Shown: positions 9,882-30,740 of the stretch, in pieces
How the letters are laid out: the number at the start of each line of letters is the position of its first letter
How positions within the stretch are numbered: position 1 is the stretch's first letter
NCBI GenBank assembly: GCA_902796435.1
Contig: CADBPG010000127.1
Coordinates: forward strand, 1-36,847
Length of the DNA: 36,847 bases
Direction of reading: 5' to 3'
From: an uncultured Eubacteriales bacterium
GTDB lineage: Bacteria; Bacillota; Clostridia; Lachnospirales; Bianqueaceae
Notes under the pieces: generated by a model
What the model saw: the letters and a program-made list of their open reading frames with translations, nothing else
Told to the model about the DNA's origin: nothing
The model's database searches: none
Position numbers and translations under genes: made by a program

Positions 9882-10697
9882 ATGACTGGCGAGTATGAAA
9901 TCAAAAAACAGATTCTCGACGTCGGCCGCCGCATCTACAACCGTGGCATGGTTGCCGCCAATGACGGTAACATCAGCGTCAAGCTGAACGACAACGAATT
10001 CCTGTGCACGCCGACCGGCGTATCCAAGGGCTTCATGACCATGGATATGATCTGCAAGGTCGATGCTGATGGCAATGTGATCCATGCCAACGGTCCTTAC
10101 AAACCGTCTTCTGAGATCAAAATGCACATGCGTGTTTACAAACTGCGTCCTGACGTAAAGAGCGTTGTACACGCACATCCCATGTATGCGACGAGCTACG
10201 CCATCGCCGGTATTCCGCTGACCGCTCCGATCATGCCGGAAGCTGTCATCGCCCTGGGCTGCGTACCGATCGCACCGTATGGCACACCTTCCACCATGGA
10301 GATCCCGGATGCTGTTGAGCCTTTCCTGCAGCATTATGACGCGGTTCTGCTGGAGAACCACGGCGCCCTCAGCTATTCTGATTCTCTGATGGCTGCCTAC
10401 TACAAGATGGAATCTCTGGAATTCTACGCGAAGCTCATGTTCCTGTCCACGCAGCTGGGCGGTCCGAAGAAGCTGAACGACCAGCAGGTGCAGGCACTGT
10501 ATGAGCTGCGCCGCAAGATGGGCCTGACCGGCAAACATCCGGCAGACCTGTGCCAGAAGATCAACGGCGTCGGCTGTGGCTGCCACAGCTGTGACAGTGG
10601 CTGCGCTTCCGGTTCCTGCTCCACGCAGGCCCCCGCAGCTGACAATGACCTGGTCGCGGAAGTGACCCGTCGTATCCTTCAGGAATTAGGCAAATAA
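9882..10697 (+). CDS. Class II aldolase (rhamnulose/fuculose-1-phosphate) with C-terminal encapsulation peptide
   Basis: This zinc aldolase of the FucA/AraD fold should split rhamnulose- or fuculose-1-phosphate into DHAP and L-lactaldehyde. The core shows the catalytic acid in SSEIKMH, the zinc ligands in VVHAHPMYAT and the third His in LLENHGAL. The 271-residue protein is about 50 longer than the FucA core. The extra C-terminus holds a Cys cluster (CGCHSCDSGCASGSC, residues 232-246), a short linker and the amphipathic helix NDLVAEVTRRILQELGK (255-271), a typical cargo signal for a microcompartment. TAGGAGGAA precedes the ATG. Rhamnulokinase upstream favours rhamnulose-1-phosphate; both substrates give the same products. 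Confidence 0.93.
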   Translation: MTGEYEIKKQILDVGRRIYNRGMVAANDGNISVKLNDNEFLCTPTGVSKGFMTMDMICKVDADGNVIHANGPYKPSSEIKMHMRVYKLRPDVKSVVHAHPMYATSYAIAGIPLTAPIMPEAVIALGCVPIAPYGTPSTMEIPDAVEPFLQHYDAVLLENHGALSYSDSLMAAYYKMESLEFYAKLMFLSTQLGGPKKLNDQQVQALYELRRKMGLTGKHPADLCQKINGVGCGCHSCDSGCASGSCSTQAPAADNDLVAEVTRRILQELGK

Positions 10698-10732
10698 GAA
10701 CCCCCAATCGGGCATAAAGGCAGGTGACTTCT

Positions 10733-11710
10733 TTGGCAGGTACCACGCTTTATACCCGTTCCGGTGATTCCGGACAGACCACGCTGGGTGCCGGCCGCAG
10801 AGTCCCCAAGACCAACGGGACCCTGGAAGTGCTGGGCAACATCGACGAGCTGATCAGTCAGATCGCGGTCACCCGCAGCAGCCTGCCCCAGGAAGAAACC
10901 GATCTCACAGGCACGCTGAAGGCACTGCAGAACGACCTGTTGCTTTTAAAGGAAGACATCTCCTCCATGCATCAGGCCCGGCAGATCGGCCAGAAACAGG
11001 TCGAACAGCTGGAAGCGTGGATCGACAGGCTGGCACCCTTCGCAGCGTCGAAGGAGGAGGAGCGGGCGGCTTCGGCCACCGGTTCCGCAGCACAGCTGGA
11101 TCTGTGCCGCAGCCTGGCCCGGCGGGTAGAGCGGTCCTTGATGAAAGCAGGATTGCCTGCGGCCGGCCACCAGAAATACGTCAACCGTCTTTCGGACTAT
11201 TTCTACGCAGCTGCCCGTTATATGGACAGCCGGCAAAGAAACAGAGCCCTGGAAGCGATGCCCCAGCTGGACCGTCCCTTCCCGCTGAAGCTTGCCAAGC
11301 TGCTTTTAGAAGCAGTGGAGCGGGTGGCGGAGGAACGGGGCCTGAAACTGGTGATCGCGGCCTGCGATGCCGCAGGAAGGCCTATCGCAGTCCACGTCAT
11401 GGACGATGCCTTCATCGCCAGCTATGACATTGCGGTCAACAAGGCCTGGACGGCAGTCTCCTTGAAAATGCCGACCAAGGATCTGGCGGAGCTTTGCAAA
11501 CCGGGCGGCAGCCTCTACGGGCTGCAGAACACCAACGGTGGCAAGGTCGTCATCTTCGGCGGCGGCGTCCCGCTGACCGACAGGTCCGGACGCATCATCG
11601 GAGGCGCGGCTGTCAGCGGTTCCACAGCAGAGATCGACACCGAGATGGGTGATATTTGCAAAACCATATTTGATCAATTGTATGAAGCGCTCGGCGCTTC
11701 ATGGACATAA
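10733..11710 (+). CDS. pduO: PduO-like two-domain protein (cobalamin adenosyltransferase plus GlcG/HbpS domain)
   Basis: The N-terminal half (residues about 1-170) is a PduO-type ATP:cob(I)alamin adenosyltransferase fold, with the ATP loop TRSGDSGQT, NIDELI, the RSLARRVER helix and the YVNRLSDYFYAAARY helix. The usual F-x-L-P-G-G segment before the Arg helix is not recognisable (ASATGSAAQ instead), so the cobalamin-side pocket may be altered. The C-terminal part (about 185-325) is the GlcG/HbpS domain of full-length PduO (AVHVMDDAFIASYDIAVNKA, then GGGVPL). I prefer TTG 10733 because AGGTGA (10722-10727) is well placed for it; GTG 10724 lies within that SD. No B12-dependent dehydratase is nearby. 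No encapsulation peptide is obvious. Confidence 0.88.
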   Translation: MAGTTLYTRSGDSGQTTLGAGRRVPKTNGTLEVLGNIDELISQIAVTRSSLPQEETDLTGTLKALQNDLLLLKEDISSMHQARQIGQKQVEQLEAWIDRLAPFAASKEEERAASATGSAAQLDLCRSLARRVERSLMKAGLPAAGHQKYVNRLSDYFYAAARYMDSRQRNRALEAMPQLDRPFPLKLAKLLLEAVERVAEERGLKLVIAACDAAGRPIAVHVMDDAFIASYDIAVNKAWTAVSLKMPTKDLAELCKPGGSLYGLQNTNGGKVVIFGGGVPLTDRSGRIIGGAAVSGSTAEIDTEMGDICKTIFDQLYEALGASWT

Positions 11711-11727
11711 GGAAGGAGGCATCATCT

Positions 11728-13134
11728 TTGGCAATCACGGAAAAAGAGTTGCAAGAACTGGTCCGTGCCGTATTGGCCGAGATGCAGGGCTTACGTCCTT
11801 CACAGCAAGAGGAGACCGGTGTGTTCGACACGATGGAAGAAGCCATCGCCGCAGCGGCACGCGCGCAGCAGGAGATCCGCCGGATGCCTCTGGAGTTTCG
11901 TGAAAAGATCATTTCCAATATCCGCAAGAGCACCATGGAGAATCTCCGCACCTACGCGGAATTCGGTGTCACCGAAACGGGTATGGGCAATGTAGGCCAT
12001 AAGATCCTGAAGCATCAGCTGGTGGCAGAAAAAACACCGGGTACCGAGGACCTGACGACCATCGCCTGGTCCGGCGACCGGGGACTGACACTGGTAGAGC
12101 AGGGACCCTTCGGCGTCATCGGCGCCATCACCCCCTGCACCAACCCCAGTGAAACGGTCATCTGCAACACCATCGGCATGATCGCGGCCGGCAACACTGT
12201 AGTCTTCAATCCGCATCCCGCAGCGATCGGTGTATCCTGCTACGCGGTCAGCAAGATCAACGAAGCATCCATTGCGGCCGGTGGCCCGGCGAACATCGCC
12301 ACCACGGTCAAGAAGCCTACGCTGGAAACCGCGGACGTCATGTTCAAGAGCCCGACGATCCCGCTTCTGGTCGCCACCGGCGGCCCGGGCGTAGTCACCG
12401 CAGTTCTTTCCACCGGTAAACGTGGTATCGGCGCCGGAGCAGGCAATCCGCCCGTCGTCGTCGATGAAACTGCCGATATCGAGAACGCGGCGATCAGCAT
12501 CATCAATGGCTGCACACTGGACAACAACCTCCCCTGCATCGCGGAGAAAGAGGTCGTCGTCGTAGACAGCGTCGCGGACCATCTGATCGATGCCATGGAA
12601 CGCAACGGTGCCTACAAGCTCACGGATCCGGCCAAGATCCAGCAGCTGGCGGAAATGGTCGTGATCCCCAACAAGAAGGGCAAGATGCAGGTCTCGCGTG
12701 ACTGGGTCGGACGCGATGCGTACAAGTTCTTGAACGCCATCGGGATCGACGCAGACCCCAGTGTCAAGTGCATCATCTTCGAGGCACCGGAGGACCACAT
12801 CCTGGTCCAGACCGAACTCATGATGCCGATCCTGGGCATCGTCCGTGCGAAGAACGCGGAAGAGGCCATGGACATGGGTGTGCGCCTGGAGCATGGCAAC
12901 CGCCATTCCGCCCACATGCATTCCAAGAACGTGGACCGGCTGACACGCTTCGGCCAGATGGTCGATACCGCGATCTTTGTCAAGAACGGGCCGTCCTACG
13001 CGGCACTGGGCTTCGGTGGCGAAGGTTTCCCGACCTTCACCATCGCCAGCCGTACCGGCGAGGGCTTAACGTCCGCCAAGACCTTTACGAAATCCAGACG
13101 CTGCGTCATGACCGACGCGCTCTGCATTCGATAG
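11728..13134 (+). CDS. pduP: CoA-acylating aldehyde dehydrogenase, PduP/EutE type
   Basis: This enzyme should oxidise L-lactaldehyde (or propionaldehyde) to the acyl-CoA with NAD+ and CoA inside the compartment. The 468-residue product has the catalytic Cys in DNNLPCIAEKEV (about residue 270) and the PduP-like FGVIGAITPCTNPSET segment. Its first 22 residues, MAITEKELQELVRAVLAEMQGL, form an amphipathic encapsulation-like helix followed by a linker. I chose TTG 11728 because AAGGAGG (11713-11719) lies 8 bases upstream. ATG 11701 lies within the pduO end and has no SD. The only aldehyde made by this locus is lactaldehyde, so lactyl-CoA is the likely product. Confidence 0.94.
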   Translation: MAITEKELQELVRAVLAEMQGLRPSQQEETGVFDTMEEAIAAAARAQQEIRRMPLEFREKIISNIRKSTMENLRTYAEFGVTETGMGNVGHKILKHQLVAEKTPGTEDLTTIAWSGDRGLTLVEQGPFGVIGAITPCTNPSETVICNTIGMIAAGNTVVFNPHPAAIGVSCYAVSKINEASIAAGGPANIATTVKKPTLETADVMFKSPTIPLLVATGGPGVVTAVLSTGKRGIGAGAGNPPVVVDETADIENAAISIINGCTLDNNLPCIAEKEVVVVDSVADHLIDAMERNGAYKLTDPAKIQQLAEMVVIPNKKGKMQVSRDWVGRDAYKFLNAIGIDADPSVKCIIFEAPEDHILVQTELMMPILGIVRAKNAEEAMDMGVRLEHGNRHSAHMHSKNVDRLTRFGQMVDTAIFVKNGPSYAALGFGGEGFPTFTIASRTGEGLTSAKTFTKSRRCVMTDALCIR

Positions 13135-13161
13135 AATCTCGAGAAGGGAGAGAAGTAACCT

Positions 13162-14397
13162 ATGGATATCAACCAGGAAAGTGTTGAGAAGATCGTAGCC
13201 CGCGTCCTCGCGGAAATGGGCCGCACTGGAAAGACCGGATCCCTGACTCCCTCGTATCAGGAACCGGCTCAGCACTTTGACATTCCCAAACGCGCGAAAG
13301 TCGCCATGCTGACCGCTCTGCGCCGCATCGAGGTCAAGGAATTCGACATTCCGGAGATCGGTGACGACGAGATGCTGGTCCATGTAGAAGGCGCCGGCGT
13401 TTGCGGAACCGACGTACACGAGTATAAGAACGATCCGTTCGGTCTGATCCCGGTAGTTCTGGGACATGAGGGTACCGGCCAGATCGTCAAGATGGGCAAG
13501 AACGTCACACAGGATACGACGGGCAAGCCGCTCCATGTGGGCGACCGCATCGTCACCTGCACCATTCCCTGCAAAAAGTGCGACAACTGCCTGAACATGA
13601 GCGACCGTGACAACCTGTGCGAGAATTCCGGCATCTATGGTCTGATGCCTGAAGACGACCACTATCACTTCAATGGATGGTTCGGTGAGTACATCATCAT
13701 CCGTCCGGGTTCCACCTTCTTCAAGGTCAACGATATGAGCTTGAAGATGCGCATGCTGATCGAGCCTGCGGCCGTCGTGGTCCACGCTGTCGAGCGTGCC
13801 AAGAAGACCGGCCTCATCTCCTTCAACAGCAACGTGCTGATCCAGGGCGTCGGCCCCATCGGTATGATGCTGCTGGCGGTCGTCCGTACCATGGGTGTGG
13901 AGAACATCACCGTCGTCGATGGCGATGAGAAGCGTCTGCAGACAGCGAAGCGCTTCGGTGCGAAGTACACGGTCAACTTCAAGAATTACAAGGATCTGGA
14001 CGAGCAGATCCGCCGCATCAAGGAGATCACCGGCGGCCGTGGAGCGGACTTCGCTTTCCAGTGCACCGGCGTACCTTCCGCAGCGGCCAATGTATGGAAA
14101 TTCGTCAAGCGCGGCGGCGGTCTGTGCGAGGTCGGCTTCTTCGTCGACAACGGCAGCTGCTCCATCAACCCGCACTTTGACATCTGCAACAAGGAGATCA
14201 CCCTGGTCGGTTCCTGGACCTACAACGTTCGCGAGTATCCGACCACGATCGAATTCCTGAAGCGTGCTGTCGGTATCGGCCTGCCGATCGAAGATATGGT
14301 CACCCATCAGTTCGGTCTGGATGAAATGAACGATGCGATGGATACGAATATGAAGCAGCTGGGACTGAAGGTTGCTTACGTCAACAAGAACTTCTGA
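13162..14397 (+). CDS. Zinc-dependent alcohol dehydrogenase with N-terminal encapsulation peptide
   Basis: A medium-chain zinc alcohol dehydrogenase of 411 residues. Catalytic-zinc residues are in GVCGTDVHE (Cys81) and LGHEGTG (His102, Glu103). The structural-zinc cysteines are in CKKCDNCLNMSDRDNLC. The Rossmann motif GVGPIG is followed by VVDGDEKR, whose Asp suggests NAD(H). Residues 1-22 (MDINQESVEKIVARVLAEMG) are an amphipathic helix like that of the aldehyde dehydrogenase. It probably reduces L-lactaldehyde to 1,2-propanediol, returning NAD+ to the aldehyde dehydrogenase. The substrate is inferred from context. It lies 27 bases after the aldehyde dehydrogenase gene. Confidence 0.9.
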   Translation: MDINQESVEKIVARVLAEMGRTGKTGSLTPSYQEPAQHFDIPKRAKVAMLTALRRIEVKEFDIPEIGDDEMLVHVEGAGVCGTDVHEYKNDPFGLIPVVLGHEGTGQIVKMGKNVTQDTTGKPLHVGDRIVTCTIPCKKCDNCLNMSDRDNLCENSGIYGLMPEDDHYHFNGWFGEYIIIRPGSTFFKVNDMSLKMRMLIEPAAVVVHAVERAKKTGLISFNSNVLIQGVGPIGMMLLAVVRTMGVENITVVDGDEKRLQTAKRFGAKYTVNFKNYKDLDEQIRRIKEITGGRGADFAFQCTGVPSAAANVWKFVKRGGGLCEVGFFVDNGSCSINPHFDICNKEITLVGSWTYNVREYPTTIEFLKRAVGIGLPIEDMVTHQFGLDEMNDAMDTNMKQLGLKVAYVNKNF

Positions 14398-14425
14398 GAG
14401 TTCGTAATGTAAGGAGCGAAATACG

Positions 14426-14773
14426 ATGGATGCGGTAGGAATGCTCGAGGTCTTCGGATTTGCCTGTGCCATGGTTGCGGCCGATGCCGGCTGCAAGGCG
14501 GGCAATGTCTACATCGAAGCCATCGACAAAAACAAGCCGGCCAATGCGGAATCCCTTCCGGTACCGCTGTTGGTCTGCGTCAAGTTCCGCGGCTCGGTCG
14601 CCGATGTGGAGGCCGCCATGGAAGCGGCAGAAAAGGCTGCATTAGCGATGACCGGGATCTACTCCAAGCACATCATCGCGAAGCCGGACGAAGGCGCTGA
14701 GGCCATGCTGAAACTCAGCTGCATCGGTACACCGGTCCCGCCAGGACAGGCGCCCACGAAGGACCGCTTCTGA
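14426..14773 (+). CDS. BMC-H shell protein, extended form
   Basis: A 115-residue single BMC-domain protein that should form flat hexamers in the shell. It starts MDAVGMLEVFGFACAMVAADAGCKAGNV, the BMC beta-alpha core. It has a longer loop (DKNKPANAESLPVP) before the second strand and a Pro-rich C-terminal tail (TPVPPGQAPTKDRF) that the other three hexamer proteins lack. The loop and tail suggest a specialised shell position or a role in binding cargo. AAGGAGCG lies upstream of the ATG. It is the first of four consecutive BMC-H genes. Confidence 0.93.
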   Translation: MDAVGMLEVFGFACAMVAADAGCKAGNVYIEAIDKNKPANAESLPVPLLVCVKFRGSVADVEAAMEAAEKAALAMTGIYSKHIIAKPDEGAEAMLKLSCIGTPVPPGQAPTKDRF

Positions 14774-14806
14774 TAAGATTTTAAGACAACCAAAGGAGAA
14801 GACGAC

Positions 14807-15082
14807 ATGCAGGAAGCATTAGGAATGATCGAGACCCGGGGTCTCGTAGCTGCTATCGAGGCGGCGGATGCAATGGTCAAGGCGGCGGACGTCGTACTGA
14901 TCGGTACCGAAAAGATCGGATCCGGACTGGTCTCCGTCATGGTCCGCGGTGATGTGGCGGCCGTTAAGTCCGCGACTGAAGTCGGCGCACAGAATGCCTC
15001 CCGTCTGGGTGAGCTCGTAGCCGTTCATGTCATCCCCAGACCGCACAAGGACGTTGAGTTTATTCTCCCGTCTCTGGACTGA
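14807..15082 (+). CDS. pduA: BMC-H shell protein, PduA type (copy 1)
   Basis: A 91-residue canonical BMC-H protein ([42 protein letters not shown]) that forms the hexameric shell tiles whose central pore admits small metabolites. It is about 83 percent identical by eye to the gene product at 15480-15752 (15 differences in 90 aligned positions), so the two arose by duplication. AAAGGAGAA precedes the ATG. Confidence 0.95.
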
Positions 15083-15126
15083 TCACTTGACAAAAAACCA
15101 TAAGCGCAGTACAAAGGAAGAGGCAT

Positions 15127-15417
15127 ATGCAGGCAATCGGCTTATTTGAGATCAAGGGTAATGTCCCGGCTGTAGTCGCGGTGGACGCGATGACCAAGGC
15201 AGCCAATGTACATTTTCTGACCTGGGAGCAGAAACTCGGAGGATGGCTCGTCACGATCGTCATCCAGGGTGAGGTTTCCGCGGTACAGGCAGCGATCGAT
15301 GCAGCCAACCGGACGGCGATCAGCAAGGTTGCAGCGTCCGCTGTCATTGCCAACCCGCACCCCGAAGTCATGCGCCAGATCGAAACCAGCCAAAAAAGGC
15401 AAGGGTATGATTCTTAA
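15127..15417 (+). CDS. BMC-H shell protein, divergent hexamer
   Basis: A 96-residue single BMC-domain protein (MQAIGLFEIKGNVPAVVAVDAMTKAANVHFLTWEQKLGG in segments, then VIANPHPEVM) clearly different from its two PduA-like neighbours, between which it is inserted. The HFLTWEQKLGG strand is typical of a second BMC-H class found alongside PduA-type proteins in catabolic loci. It probably contributes a hexamer with a different pore or edge surface. AAAGGAAGAGG lies upstream of the ATG. Confidence 0.92.
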   Translation: MQAIGLFEIKGNVPAVVAVDAMTKAANVHFLTWEQKLGGWLVTIVIQGEVSAVQAAIDAANRTAISKVAASAVIANPHPEVMRQIETSQKRQGYDS

Positions 15418-15479
15418 GTTTTTCCAAAGTCTTTCAAAAGACAACAACATAATATGAAAACCATAAAGGAGGATTCATC

Positions 15480-15752
15480 ATGGAAGCATTAGGTATGATT
15501 GAGACAAGAGGACTGGTAGCAGCGATCGAAGCCGCCGATGCAATGGTCAAGGCCGCTAACGTTGTTCTGATCGGTACCGAGAAGATCGGTTCCGGCCTCG
15601 TATCCGTCATGATCCGTGGCGATGTCGGAGCTGTCAAGGCTGCGACCGAAGCCGGCAGCAATGCGGCTCAGAACCTGGGCGAGATCATCGCGGTACACGT
15701 CATTCCGAGACCGCATGCAGACGTCGAAAAGATTCTGCCGACCTTAGACTGA
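15480..15752 (+). CDS. pduA: BMC-H shell protein, PduA type (copy 2)
   Basis: A 90-residue PduA-type hexamer protein and paralogue of the product at 14807-15082. Differences cluster in the second helix region ([12 protein letters not shown] against [12 protein letters not shown]) and near the C-terminus, whereas the first 45 residues are almost the same. The DNA of that conserved half differs at many third codon positions. AAAGGAGGA lies 6 bases before the ATG, a very strong site that fits a major shell component. The gene is followed by two large hairpins. Confidence 0.95.
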
Positions 15753-15775
15753 TCCGATCGAAGGTCATACCATGG

Positions 15776-15846
15776 TTTCCAGTCACGATGACTGGGAATC
15801 AGGGAAGGCCCCCATCCGGCACATGTGATGGAGGTCTTCCCTGATT
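15776..15846 (+). other. Tandem RNA hairpins between the shell genes and pduL
   Basis: Two adjacent inverted repeats lie in this 120-base gap. The first (15776-15798) is a 10-bp stem with a 3-base loop. The second (15797-15846) has 20-base arms, AATCAGGGAAGGCCCCCATC against GATGGAGGTCTTCCCTGATT, with one G-U pair, one mismatch and a 10-base loop. No T-run follows either, so they do not look like rho-independent terminators. They may protect or define the 3' end of the upstream shell-protein messages and lower expression of pduL and later genes. They share two bases and could partly exclude each other. Confidence 0.7.
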
Positions 15847-15872
15847 CGATTTGAAAGAAAGAGGGTATTCCG

Positions 15873-16523
15873 ATGGAAAACGAAAGAATGATCAATGAGA
15901 TCGTTTCCCTGATCGTGGATAAATTAAAGGGACAGGAAGTGCTCCCTGCTTCTGACAAACGTGTCAAGGTCGGTGTTTCGGCCCGCCACGTCCACCTGAG
16001 CCGCGAGGATATGGACATCCTCTTCGGTAAGGGTTCTGAACTGACCCCGCAGAAGGATCTGATGGGCGGCCAGTTCGCGGCAAAAGAGACCGTGACCATC
16101 ATCGGTCTGAAGCTGCGTGCCATCGAAAACGTCCGCGTCCTAGGCCCGCTGCGCAAGCAGACGCAGGTCGAAGTCTCCGCGACGGACTGCATCCGCCTGG
16201 GTGTCAAAGCTCCGGTGCGCCTGTCCGGCGACCTGAAGGGCTCCGCGCCGATCACCATCATTGGTCCGAAGGGCGCTGTTACGATCCAAGAGGGCTGCAT
16301 CGTAGCCCTGCGCCACATCCACATGTCTCCGGCAGACGCCGCGGCCTACGGTGTCAAGGACAAGCAGGTCGTCCGCGTGCAGATGGGCGGTGCCCGCGGT
16401 GGCTATCTGGACAATGTTCCGGTCCGTGTGGACCCGAGCTTTACAACGGAAATGCATATCGATACCGATGAGGCCAATGCCCTGGGCATCCACAACGGTA
16501 TGGAACTTACCATCATCGTATAA
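15873..16523 (+). CDS. pduL: PduL phosphate acyltransferase with N-terminal encapsulation peptide
   Basis: PduL exchanges CoA for phosphate on an acyl-CoA inside the compartment, recycling CoA for the aldehyde dehydrogenase and yielding an acyl phosphate for ATP synthesis by a kinase. The 216-residue product shows both zinc-binding beta-barrel signatures: SARHVHLS (His39, His41) and LRHIHMS (His148, His150), plus TEMHIDTDEAN near the end. Residues 1-20 (ENERMINEIVSLIVDKLKG) form an amphipathic cargo helix. In this locus the substrate should be lactyl-CoA. GAGGG lies upstream of the ATG; the gene follows the tandem hairpins. Confidence 0.96.
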   Translation: MENERMINEIVSLIVDKLKGQEVLPASDKRVKVGVSARHVHLSREDMDILFGKGSELTPQKDLMGGQFAAKETVTIIGLKLRAIENVRVLGPLRKQTQVEVSATDCIRLGVKAPVRLSGDLKGSAPITIIGPKGAVTIQEGCIVALRHIHMSPADAAAYGVKDKQVVRVQMGGARGGYLDNVPVRVDPSFTTEMHIDTDEANALGIHNGMELTIIV

Positions 16524-16534
16524 GGAGAATCACT

Positions 16535-16807
16535 ATGCTGCTTGCAAAAGTCATTGGTACCGTGGTCGCTACCCGCAAGAATGAGAATCTGGTGGGCAGC
16601 AAGTTCCTGATCGTGGAGACGCTGGAAGAAATGAAGGACGGCGGTCGTCGCCTTGTGGCCGTGGATCAGGCCGGCGCCGGCATCGGCGAACTGGTCCTGG
16701 TGGCCCTGGGCAGCGCGGCACGTCAGGAGCCTTCCTCAGAAAACTCCTCCATCGACGCCGCCATCGTCGGCATCGTGGACAATCCGGACGAGATCTATAT
16801 CAGATAA
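16535..16807 (+). CDS. eutN: BMC-P pentameric vertex protein (EutN/CcmL family)
   Basis: A 90-residue EutN/CcmL family protein. Pentamers of this family cap the twelve vertices of the polyhedral shell. The N-terminus MLLAKVIGTVVATRKNENLVG, the central LIVETL and VAVDQAGAGIGELVLV segment, and the C-terminal DAAIVGIVD are the family landmarks. AAGGAGAA lies just upstream, 11 bases after pduL. It is the only vertex protein seen, so shell closure should depend on it. Confidence 0.95.
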   Translation: MLLAKVIGTVVATRKNENLVGSKFLIVETLEEMKDGGRRLVAVDQAGAGIGELVLVALGSAARQEPSSENSSIDAAIVGIVDNPDEIYIR

Positions 16808-16819
16808 CAGGTGTGGAAT

Positions 16820-17383
16820 ATGGACATGAAAAATGAACTGCGTGCCCTGGGCATGCTGGAACTGAAGTCGATCGCCAAAGGCTTCTACTGCGCGGATACC
16901 GTTGTGAAGACGGCCGAGGTAGAGCTGGTCAAGGCGACACCCATCTGCCCGGGTAAATTCATCATCCTGATCCAGGGCGGGATCGCCGCTGTCGCGGCAG
17001 CTCTGGAAGCCGGCCGCAACATGTGCGGTGATTATGTCGTGGACAGCTTCCTTCTGGGCAACCCCCACGAGCATGTCTTTGGCGCTCTGGCCGATACCTA
17101 CACCTTCGAGAAGACCCAGGCCATGGGTGTGGTCGAGACCTGGGCGGTCCCGGCAGCACTGGTCGCTGCGGATCAAGGCGCCAAGGCAGCCCAGTCCGAT
17201 GTGGTCAAGGTCGGTCTGGCGCAACAGCTGGGCGGCAAAGCCTACGTGGTCTTCACCGGCGAAGTCGCCGCTGTACAGGCCTCCGTCGAGGCCGCAGTAA
17301 ATGACCTGCGTGTCAGCGCCAAGCTGATCGACACCACGGTCATCCCGAACCCGGATCTCAAGCTTTGGGAAGCGTTGGTATAA
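16820..17383 (+). CDS. pduT: BMC-T shell protein, PduT-like with Fe-S cysteine
   Basis: A 187-residue tandem-BMC protein whose two domains (ALGMLELKSIAKGF and MGVVETWAVPAALVAADQG) make pseudohexameric trimers. The loop KATPICPGKF matches the PduT loop (ICPGKF), whose Cys binds a [4Fe-4S] cluster at the trimer axis; here it is Cys43. This suggests an electron-conducting or cluster-delivering pore. I chose ATG 16820 because AGGTG (16809-16813) lies 6 bases upstream; GTG 16811 would lie inside that SD. It is the last gene of the operon. No PduS-type electron-transfer partner is in the window. Confidence 0.93.
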   Translation: MDMKNELRALGMLELKSIAKGFYCADTVVKTAEVELVKATPICPGKFIILIQGGIAAVAAALEAGRNMCGDYVVDSFLLGNPHEHVFGALADTYTFEKTQAMGVVETWAVPAALVAADQGAKAAQSDVVKVGLAQQLGGKAYVVFTGEVAAVQASVEAAVNDLRVSAKLIDTTVIPNPDLKLWEALV

Positions 17384-17401: not shown

Positions 17402-17435
17402 AAGGCCTGTGAAAGTTCACAGGCCTTCATTTTTG
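17402..17435 (+). terminator. Strong rho-independent terminator of the microcompartment operon
   Basis: A perfect 12-bp stem (AAGGCCTGTGAA at 17402-17413, TTCACAGGCCTT at 17416-17427) with a minimal loop is followed by CATTTTTGTTTT. It marks the end of the locus. Confidence 0.93.
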
Positions 17436-21849: not shown

Positions 21850-21878
21850 ATTATACATCGAAGGCCGCAGAAAGACAA
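21850..21878 (-). promoter_or_regulatory. Promoter of the MutS-like pair
   Basis: Read on the minus strand, TTGTCT (21878-21873) and a perfect TATAAT (21855-21850) are spaced by 17 bases. The 14 bases CTTCGATGTATAAT, ending in this -10, recur exactly at the GH2 promoter. Confidence 0.72.
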
Positions 21879-21888
21879 GGAAAATCAG

Positions 21889-21918
21889 TTGACAAGACCG
21901 CGGCTCGTAAAGTATAAT
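21889..21918 (+). promoter_or_regulatory. Promoter of pepT
   Basis: Perfect -35 TTGACA (21889-21894) and perfect -10 TATAAT (21913-21918) are 18 bases apart. It is divergent from the MutS-like promoter, with the two -35 boxes only 10 bases apart. Confidence 0.85.
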
Positions 21919-30707: not shown

Positions 30708-30740
30708 GCAAAAAAAGGAACCTTCCGTAGAAGGTTCCTT
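30708..30740 (-). terminator. Rho-independent terminator of the penicillin-binding protein gene
   Basis: AAGGAACCTTC (30715-30725) and GAAGGTTCCTT (30730-30740) form an 11-bp stem with a 4-base loop. On the minus strand it is followed by a run of seven or eight Ts. It lies just after the pbp stop. Confidence 0.93.

Follow-up and report, generated by a model that had tools for sequence, protein, structure and literature searches.

The window analyzed here, a stretch of 36,847 nucleotides, belongs to a 2.67-Mb draft genome that is 98% complete and carries a microcompartment operon at around 9.9-17.4 kb, with an aldolase gene first and the gene of a PduT-like trimer last (Table 1). Between these ends, the enzyme genes are followed by 4 genes of BMC-domain shell proteins and then by pduL and the vertex gene. 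The layout can be compared to the fucose/rhamnose microcompartment operon of C. phytofermentans, which we take to be of the GRM5 type. According to the passages of PMC3557285 on that operon, which make no mention of a hairpin, it has the same order of aldolase, PduP, alcohol dehydrogenase, BMC genes, PduL, and vertex. Unlike the C. phytofermentans operon as described there, the window operon encodes PduO, and none of its genes (9882-17383) matched diol dehydratase although this PduO-type adenosyltransferase is present. Elsewhere in the window, two divergent promoter-like sites lie at 21850-21918, one of them a perfect 12/12 consensus with a spacer of 18 nt, and a perfect 11-pair hairpin (beginning AAGGAACCTTC) without a T-run on the plus strand lies at 30715-30740, adjoining ORFs that have no Pfam match at the cut-off used.

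Table 1. Features of the microcompartment operon and of the junction between its shell genes and pduL, in window coordinates.
Feature	Position	Strand	Ribosome-site match (bases)	Structure or predicted role
Class II aldolase, PduO-type adenosyltransferase, PduP/EutE-like aldehyde dehydrogenase, and zinc alcohol dehydrogenase genes (upstream operon genes)	9882-14397	+		
Three further BMC-domain shell genes (14426-14773, 14807-15082, 15127-15417)	14426-15417	+		
BMC-H shell hexamer gene, EutM/PduA-type (fourth BMC-domain gene)	15480-15752	+	7	Predicted 3' end of a stabilized mRNA segment
Hairpin H1	15776-15798	+		10 pairs including one G-T; arms 15776-15785 and 15789-15798; loop CGA (3 nt); -11.6 kcal/mol
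Hairpin H2	15796-15847	+		20 pairs, one mismatch; arms 15796-15816 and 15827-15847; loop of 10 nt; -35.1 kcal/mol
A/G-rich linker outside the stems, with the weak Shine-Dalgarno-like match of pduL (AGAGGG)	15848-15872	+	4	Predicted cleavage zone
pduL, phosphate propanoyltransferase	15873-16523	+		
Vertex protein gene, EutN/CcmL family	16535-16807	+		
Tandem-BMC trimer gene, PduT-like	16811-17383	+		
Operon-end terminator-like hairpin	17402-17427	+		T-rich tail

The gap from the stop of the EutM/PduA-type gene (15752) to the start of pduL (15873) is occupied by the two hairpins H1 and H2. At 120 nt, it is the widest of the gaps that we measured, followed by one of 114 nt at the DeoR/aldolase genes, in agreement with the first-pass annotation that had singled it out as the widest gap inside the operon. 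The same annotation had described a 10-bp and a near-perfect 20-bp stem at 15776-15846; both stems were recovered, and so was the start of the element, while its correct end is 15847. Since H1 and H2 overlap at 15796-15798, they can never both form at full length simultaneously. The gap as a whole folds at -52 kcal/mol (z -4.5), a value equaled by none of 200 shuffles, and the remaining operon gaps that are long enough for folding reached a z of -1.24 or weaker. By stem score, H2 (45.5) is the top of 8 hairpins above threshold on the plus strand of the window, where the operon-end terminator is the runner-up (28), and it exceeds the best score obtained over 30 dinucleotide shuffles of the entire window (37.5). 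The bases directly 3' of H2 (GATTTGAAAG) contain no T-run, just as had been noted at first, so that the U-tract directly after the stem-loop by which intrinsic terminators are defined is missing, and H2 is not among the matches listed by a terminator scan.

Both hairpins are kept in all 4 genomes of the genus that were compared. Two of the relatives, G001 and G002, resemble the window closely in sequence; in the latter, the contig stops partway through the gap but still includes both hairpins. This assembly break, between the hairpins and codon 35 of pduL (contigs C400/C379), may perhaps reflect that a strong hairpin hampers sequencing or assembly. The gap of the third relative (G003) is largely different in sequence and was missed by DNA search, yet it forms a short and a long hairpin with a fold of -49.4 kcal/mol. 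When the 4 H2 sequences are aligned, 95.1% of cells are paired as compared to 33-60% in slid controls, and 3 of 21 pairs have changed on both sides, which is reached by 9 of 500 shuffles; all 3 two-sided changes derive from G003, and the alignment comprises 4 sequences only. Covariation was counted for H2 alone because the MAFFT alignment places H1 of G003 one base off. Taken together, this is modest evidence, consistent with a stem of H2 that is maintained in the genus, while the loops of the hairpins vary.

Lying directly upstream of pduL, the hairpins could also control pduL translation or form a ligand- or protein-binding leader of this gene. We nevertheless consider such a role quite improbable: In the fold of the gap, neither stem covers the AGAGGG ribosome site, the loops show no conservation, and no Rfam family was found at or above its gathering score in the whole window. 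Below threshold, Rfam returned mostly models of eukaryotic microRNAs and snoRNAs, and these matches were discarded. REP-like and MITE-like repeats are typically long palindromes between genes, so that a dispersed repeat of either kind may have landed at the junction. Searching the window genome for a second copy of the gap returned only the gap itself and its own inverted arms, and the gaps of G003 and of L049 are likewise single-copy in their genomes. With these searches in 3 genomes, a dispersed repeat is largely refuted, and we give it almost no credence.

The position of hairpins differs in the other genera of the family. In 5 operons from two genera (g3 and g4), only 28-42 nt precede pduL and a strong hairpin was found there in none of the 5 (for L008, L010, and L011, where the EutM2 query matched another EutM copy, the shell/pduL gap was measured separately, at 28-41 nt). 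Genus g4 instead has a hairpin between pduL and the vertex gene in 3 of 3 operons (L007, L008, and L009), in one of them solely at a lower threshold, and genus g3 has one at neither junction (2 of 2). Consequently, the hairpin element is not ancestral at one spot in the family. This variable position would suit a functionless remnant of a former terminator, left where two transcription units fused, but a dead stem is expected to decay, while G003 retains it with two-sided changes, and hairpins of unrelated sequence are repeatedly present at one and the same junction (see below). We therefore regard a remnant as improbable.

How often hairpins occur at this junction was assessed in a main set of 80 named loci with PduL relatives, mostly from Lachnospiraceae, with genes called by a simple script that had been checked on the window. 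Overlapping genes were left out, and excluding the window's family (L026-L029) and L094 left 75 loci, of which 20 had no parsable junction (owing to the edge of a contig, an unrecognized start, a spurious ORF in between, an overlap, or a gap above 450) and 55 did. L094, which shares its contig with L013 and is part of neither set, has a gap of 16 nt without a hairpin. A strong hairpin is present at 22 of the 55 junctions between shell gene and pduL, in 21 cases a T-less one, compared to 2/121 of the remaining junctions that follow a BMC-H gene and 3/186 junctions elsewhere (5/307 in total; Fisher, shell/pduL versus the two control classes, 7e-16). The difference persists with a minimum gap length of 50 nt, where strong hairpins are found at 22/46 shell/pduL junctions versus 5/100 controls and fold z values below -2.5 at 37/44 versus 22/100 (13/57 and 9/43 in the two control classes). 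The junction between pduL and the vertex gene appears as a second, weaker hot spot in the main set, with strong hairpins at 9/51 versus 5/307 controls (Fisher, 1.4e-5) and, with the same minimum gap length, a fold z below -2.5 at 18/35. Because the hairpin finder disallows bulges, some structures will have been missed.

With one locus per 90% PduL cluster, hairpins are seen at 11/29 junctions versus 3/181 controls. When loci are merged at 75% PduL identity, hairpins remain at 2/4 junctions versus 1/30 controls (p 0.03), so that deep independence is only weakly tested by these 4 junctions. A second set gave 9/22 shell/pduL junctions versus 4/74 controls; these 22 junctions come from 56 loci that were read, after removal of L007-L011 and of duplicates, and include a single genus with similar hairpins (L163, L164, and L167). 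By blast among 24 hairpins of 23 loci, only L054, L056, L061, and L087 are linked. Cultured bacteria whose loci bear a hairpin include Blautia massiliensis (L071), Anaerobium acetethylicum (L049), and Murimonas intestini (L030). Given that the hairpins are mostly unrelated in sequence, they probably arose many times at the shell/pduL junction, or else diverge very fast while staying in place. We conclude that the double hairpin exists, exceeds chance expectation, is conserved within its genus, and has counterparts at this junction in other bacteria, with a placement that is probably convergent.

Elements of comparable design have been studied in cellulolytic Clostridia. The nearest such system is the cellulosome operon (cip-cel) of Ruminiclostridium (Clostridium) cellulolyticum, where intergenic stem-loops trigger cleavage and stabilize fragment ends, thus setting subunit ratios, as laid out in the relevant passages of PMC10311766, whose authors hypothesize that RNase Y is the nuclease. 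These SRPS stem-loops are stable, intergenic, and mostly without U-run (28 of the 33 at processing sites of C. cellulolyticum, according to the sections of PMC4423207 on these sites; see also PMC10311766). Like them, H1 and H2 follow the gene for a part of which a large protein complex needs many copies, and like SL1 and SL2 of IR1 in cip-cel they share one gap. More specifically, a stable intergenic stem-loop lies 3' of a gene whose excess we take from the Salmonella copy numbers in PMC7181861, H2 has no U-run, and the structure is conserved among relatives in 4/4 genus genomes, though g3 and g4 do not carry it at this position. Long stems with little or no U-rich tract, broken by an unpaired position and placed after an abundantly needed component, are also described for the Type IV internal stem-loops in ABC importer operons of cellulolytic Clostridia in the part of PMC9045158 that deals with them. 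Differences are that the window operon encodes a microcompartment and that H1 and H2 abut without a linker, whereas IR1 is cut in the linker between its stem-loops. Furthermore, H1 and H2 are described here from the sequence, whereas the cip-cel elements were characterized by measured cleavage sites, half-lives, and reporter assays, and Type IV stem-loops terminate transcription in reporters (PMC9045158).

By analogy to the Clostridium SRPS stem-loops, stabilization together with processing fits best, and we think it probable that the double hairpin is a processing and stabilizing RNA element that sets subunit stoichiometry within a polycistronic message. The whole operon would first be transcribed as one message, through the hairpins, and an endoribonuclease would then cut close to them, with the A/G-rich linker immediately after H2 as the likeliest site. 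On the upstream side, a fragment whose last gene encodes the EutM-type hexamer would be left with a highly stable hairpin at its 3' end that keeps 3' exonucleases out, while the downstream fragment (pduL, vertex, and trimer) would have an unprotected 5' end and decay more quickly. As a predicted outcome, many hexamers but few PduL, vertices, and trimers would be made from one operon. A gene for RNase III was found in the genome, and H2 offers a stem of 20 pairs. The first-pass annotation had placed the hairpins where stoichiometry should drop and had listed stabilization, RNase III cutting, and partial attenuation as explanations. Its view of the placement is well supported by the hexamer gene upstream and pduL, vertex, and trimer genes downstream, by the genus-conserved structure, and by the unrelated hairpins that recur at the junction, whereas the three explanations are not separable by sequence.

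The main rival is partial intrinsic termination, which would yield an equal dosage outcome: A long GC-rich stem would halt some polymerases without a U-run, and fewer transcripts would reach pduL. In R. cellulolyticum, all 16 tested stem-loops downstream of substrate-binding-protein genes, thus likewise placed after an abundant gene, caused some premature termination, with efficiencies of 20.7-96.1%, and those of Type IV hardly have U-rich tracts (PMC9045158). At our locus, the tail of H2 (GATTTGAA) has 3 T in 8 positions, whereas the operon's own end hairpin carries the T-rich tail that H2 lacks, and T-less hairpins prevail at 21 of the 22 hairpin-bearing junctions of the main set. We therefore view partial termination as a serious but rather unlikely alternative to processing and stabilization. 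Rho-dependent termination was rejected as a candidate since the 98% complete genome contains no Rho match over the curated cut-off; the search returned two weak matches only, one of which is the ATP-synthase-type ORF found where the window begins.

Microcompartments have a very unequal demand for their parts, with thousands of hexamer subunits compared to tens for PduL and 60 for the vertex: In Salmonella, the copies per Pdu compartment are 5212 for PduJ, 1841 for PduA, 289 for PduT, 60 for PduN, and 33 for PduL (PMC7181861, copy-number data). In the window, the ribosome-site match of pduL is also weaker than that of the preceding shell gene (4 versus 7 bases). A stabler upstream fragment would be in line with the fold-induction by fucose in C. 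phytofermentans, where the last PduA-like gene reaches 73.7, PduL 49.4, the PduN-like gene 37.2, and the following genes 31.7 and 25.6 (PMC3557285, Table 1), but this is suggestive only since the values are inductions and not abundances and fall gradually. In Acetobacterium woodii, the transcript of the last pdu gene exceeds that of the first according to the expression data in PMC7593272, which counts against a dosage model. So do the 33 of the 55 shell/pduL junctions of the main set that lack a hairpin at the threshold used and the 5 of 5 other operons of the window's family that have none before pduL. A natural comparison for such a model is available within this family, since the hairpin of g4 lies one gene later than that of the window's own genus (g1), so that relatively more PduL would be expected in g4.

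Hairpins in carboxysome operons are a topic of older literature. The class of mechanism proposed here is already known, while its recurrent placement in microcompartment operons did not come up in the literature searched. Among open-licence articles, surveyed by title and the opening of the abstract, none describes such hairpins in microcompartment operons, and the word microcompartment is absent from PMC4423207, PMC8219983, and PMC9045158. The second of these presents SLOFE, which predicts SRPS operons in Clostridium and beyond from the same kind of feature, the free energy of intergenic stem-loops; the main text of that paper is also free of the terms propanediol and ethanolamine.

In these Clostridia, the genes for hexamers, PduL, and vertices sit in one operon despite the unequal demand for their products, and the recurring, mostly unrelated junction hairpins of many gut bacteria suggest a general route by which one operon could deliver unequal parts. 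More tentatively, intergenic stabilizing hairpins may belong generally to microcompartment operons of this class, having evolved there again and again, with their position defining the high-dose genes. If so, the shift by one gene between g1 (hairpin before pduL) and g4 (after pduL) would mean that PduL dosage is tuned by hairpin position while gene order stays the same, and junction hairpins could possibly serve as a part for synthetic compartments with controlled shell composition.
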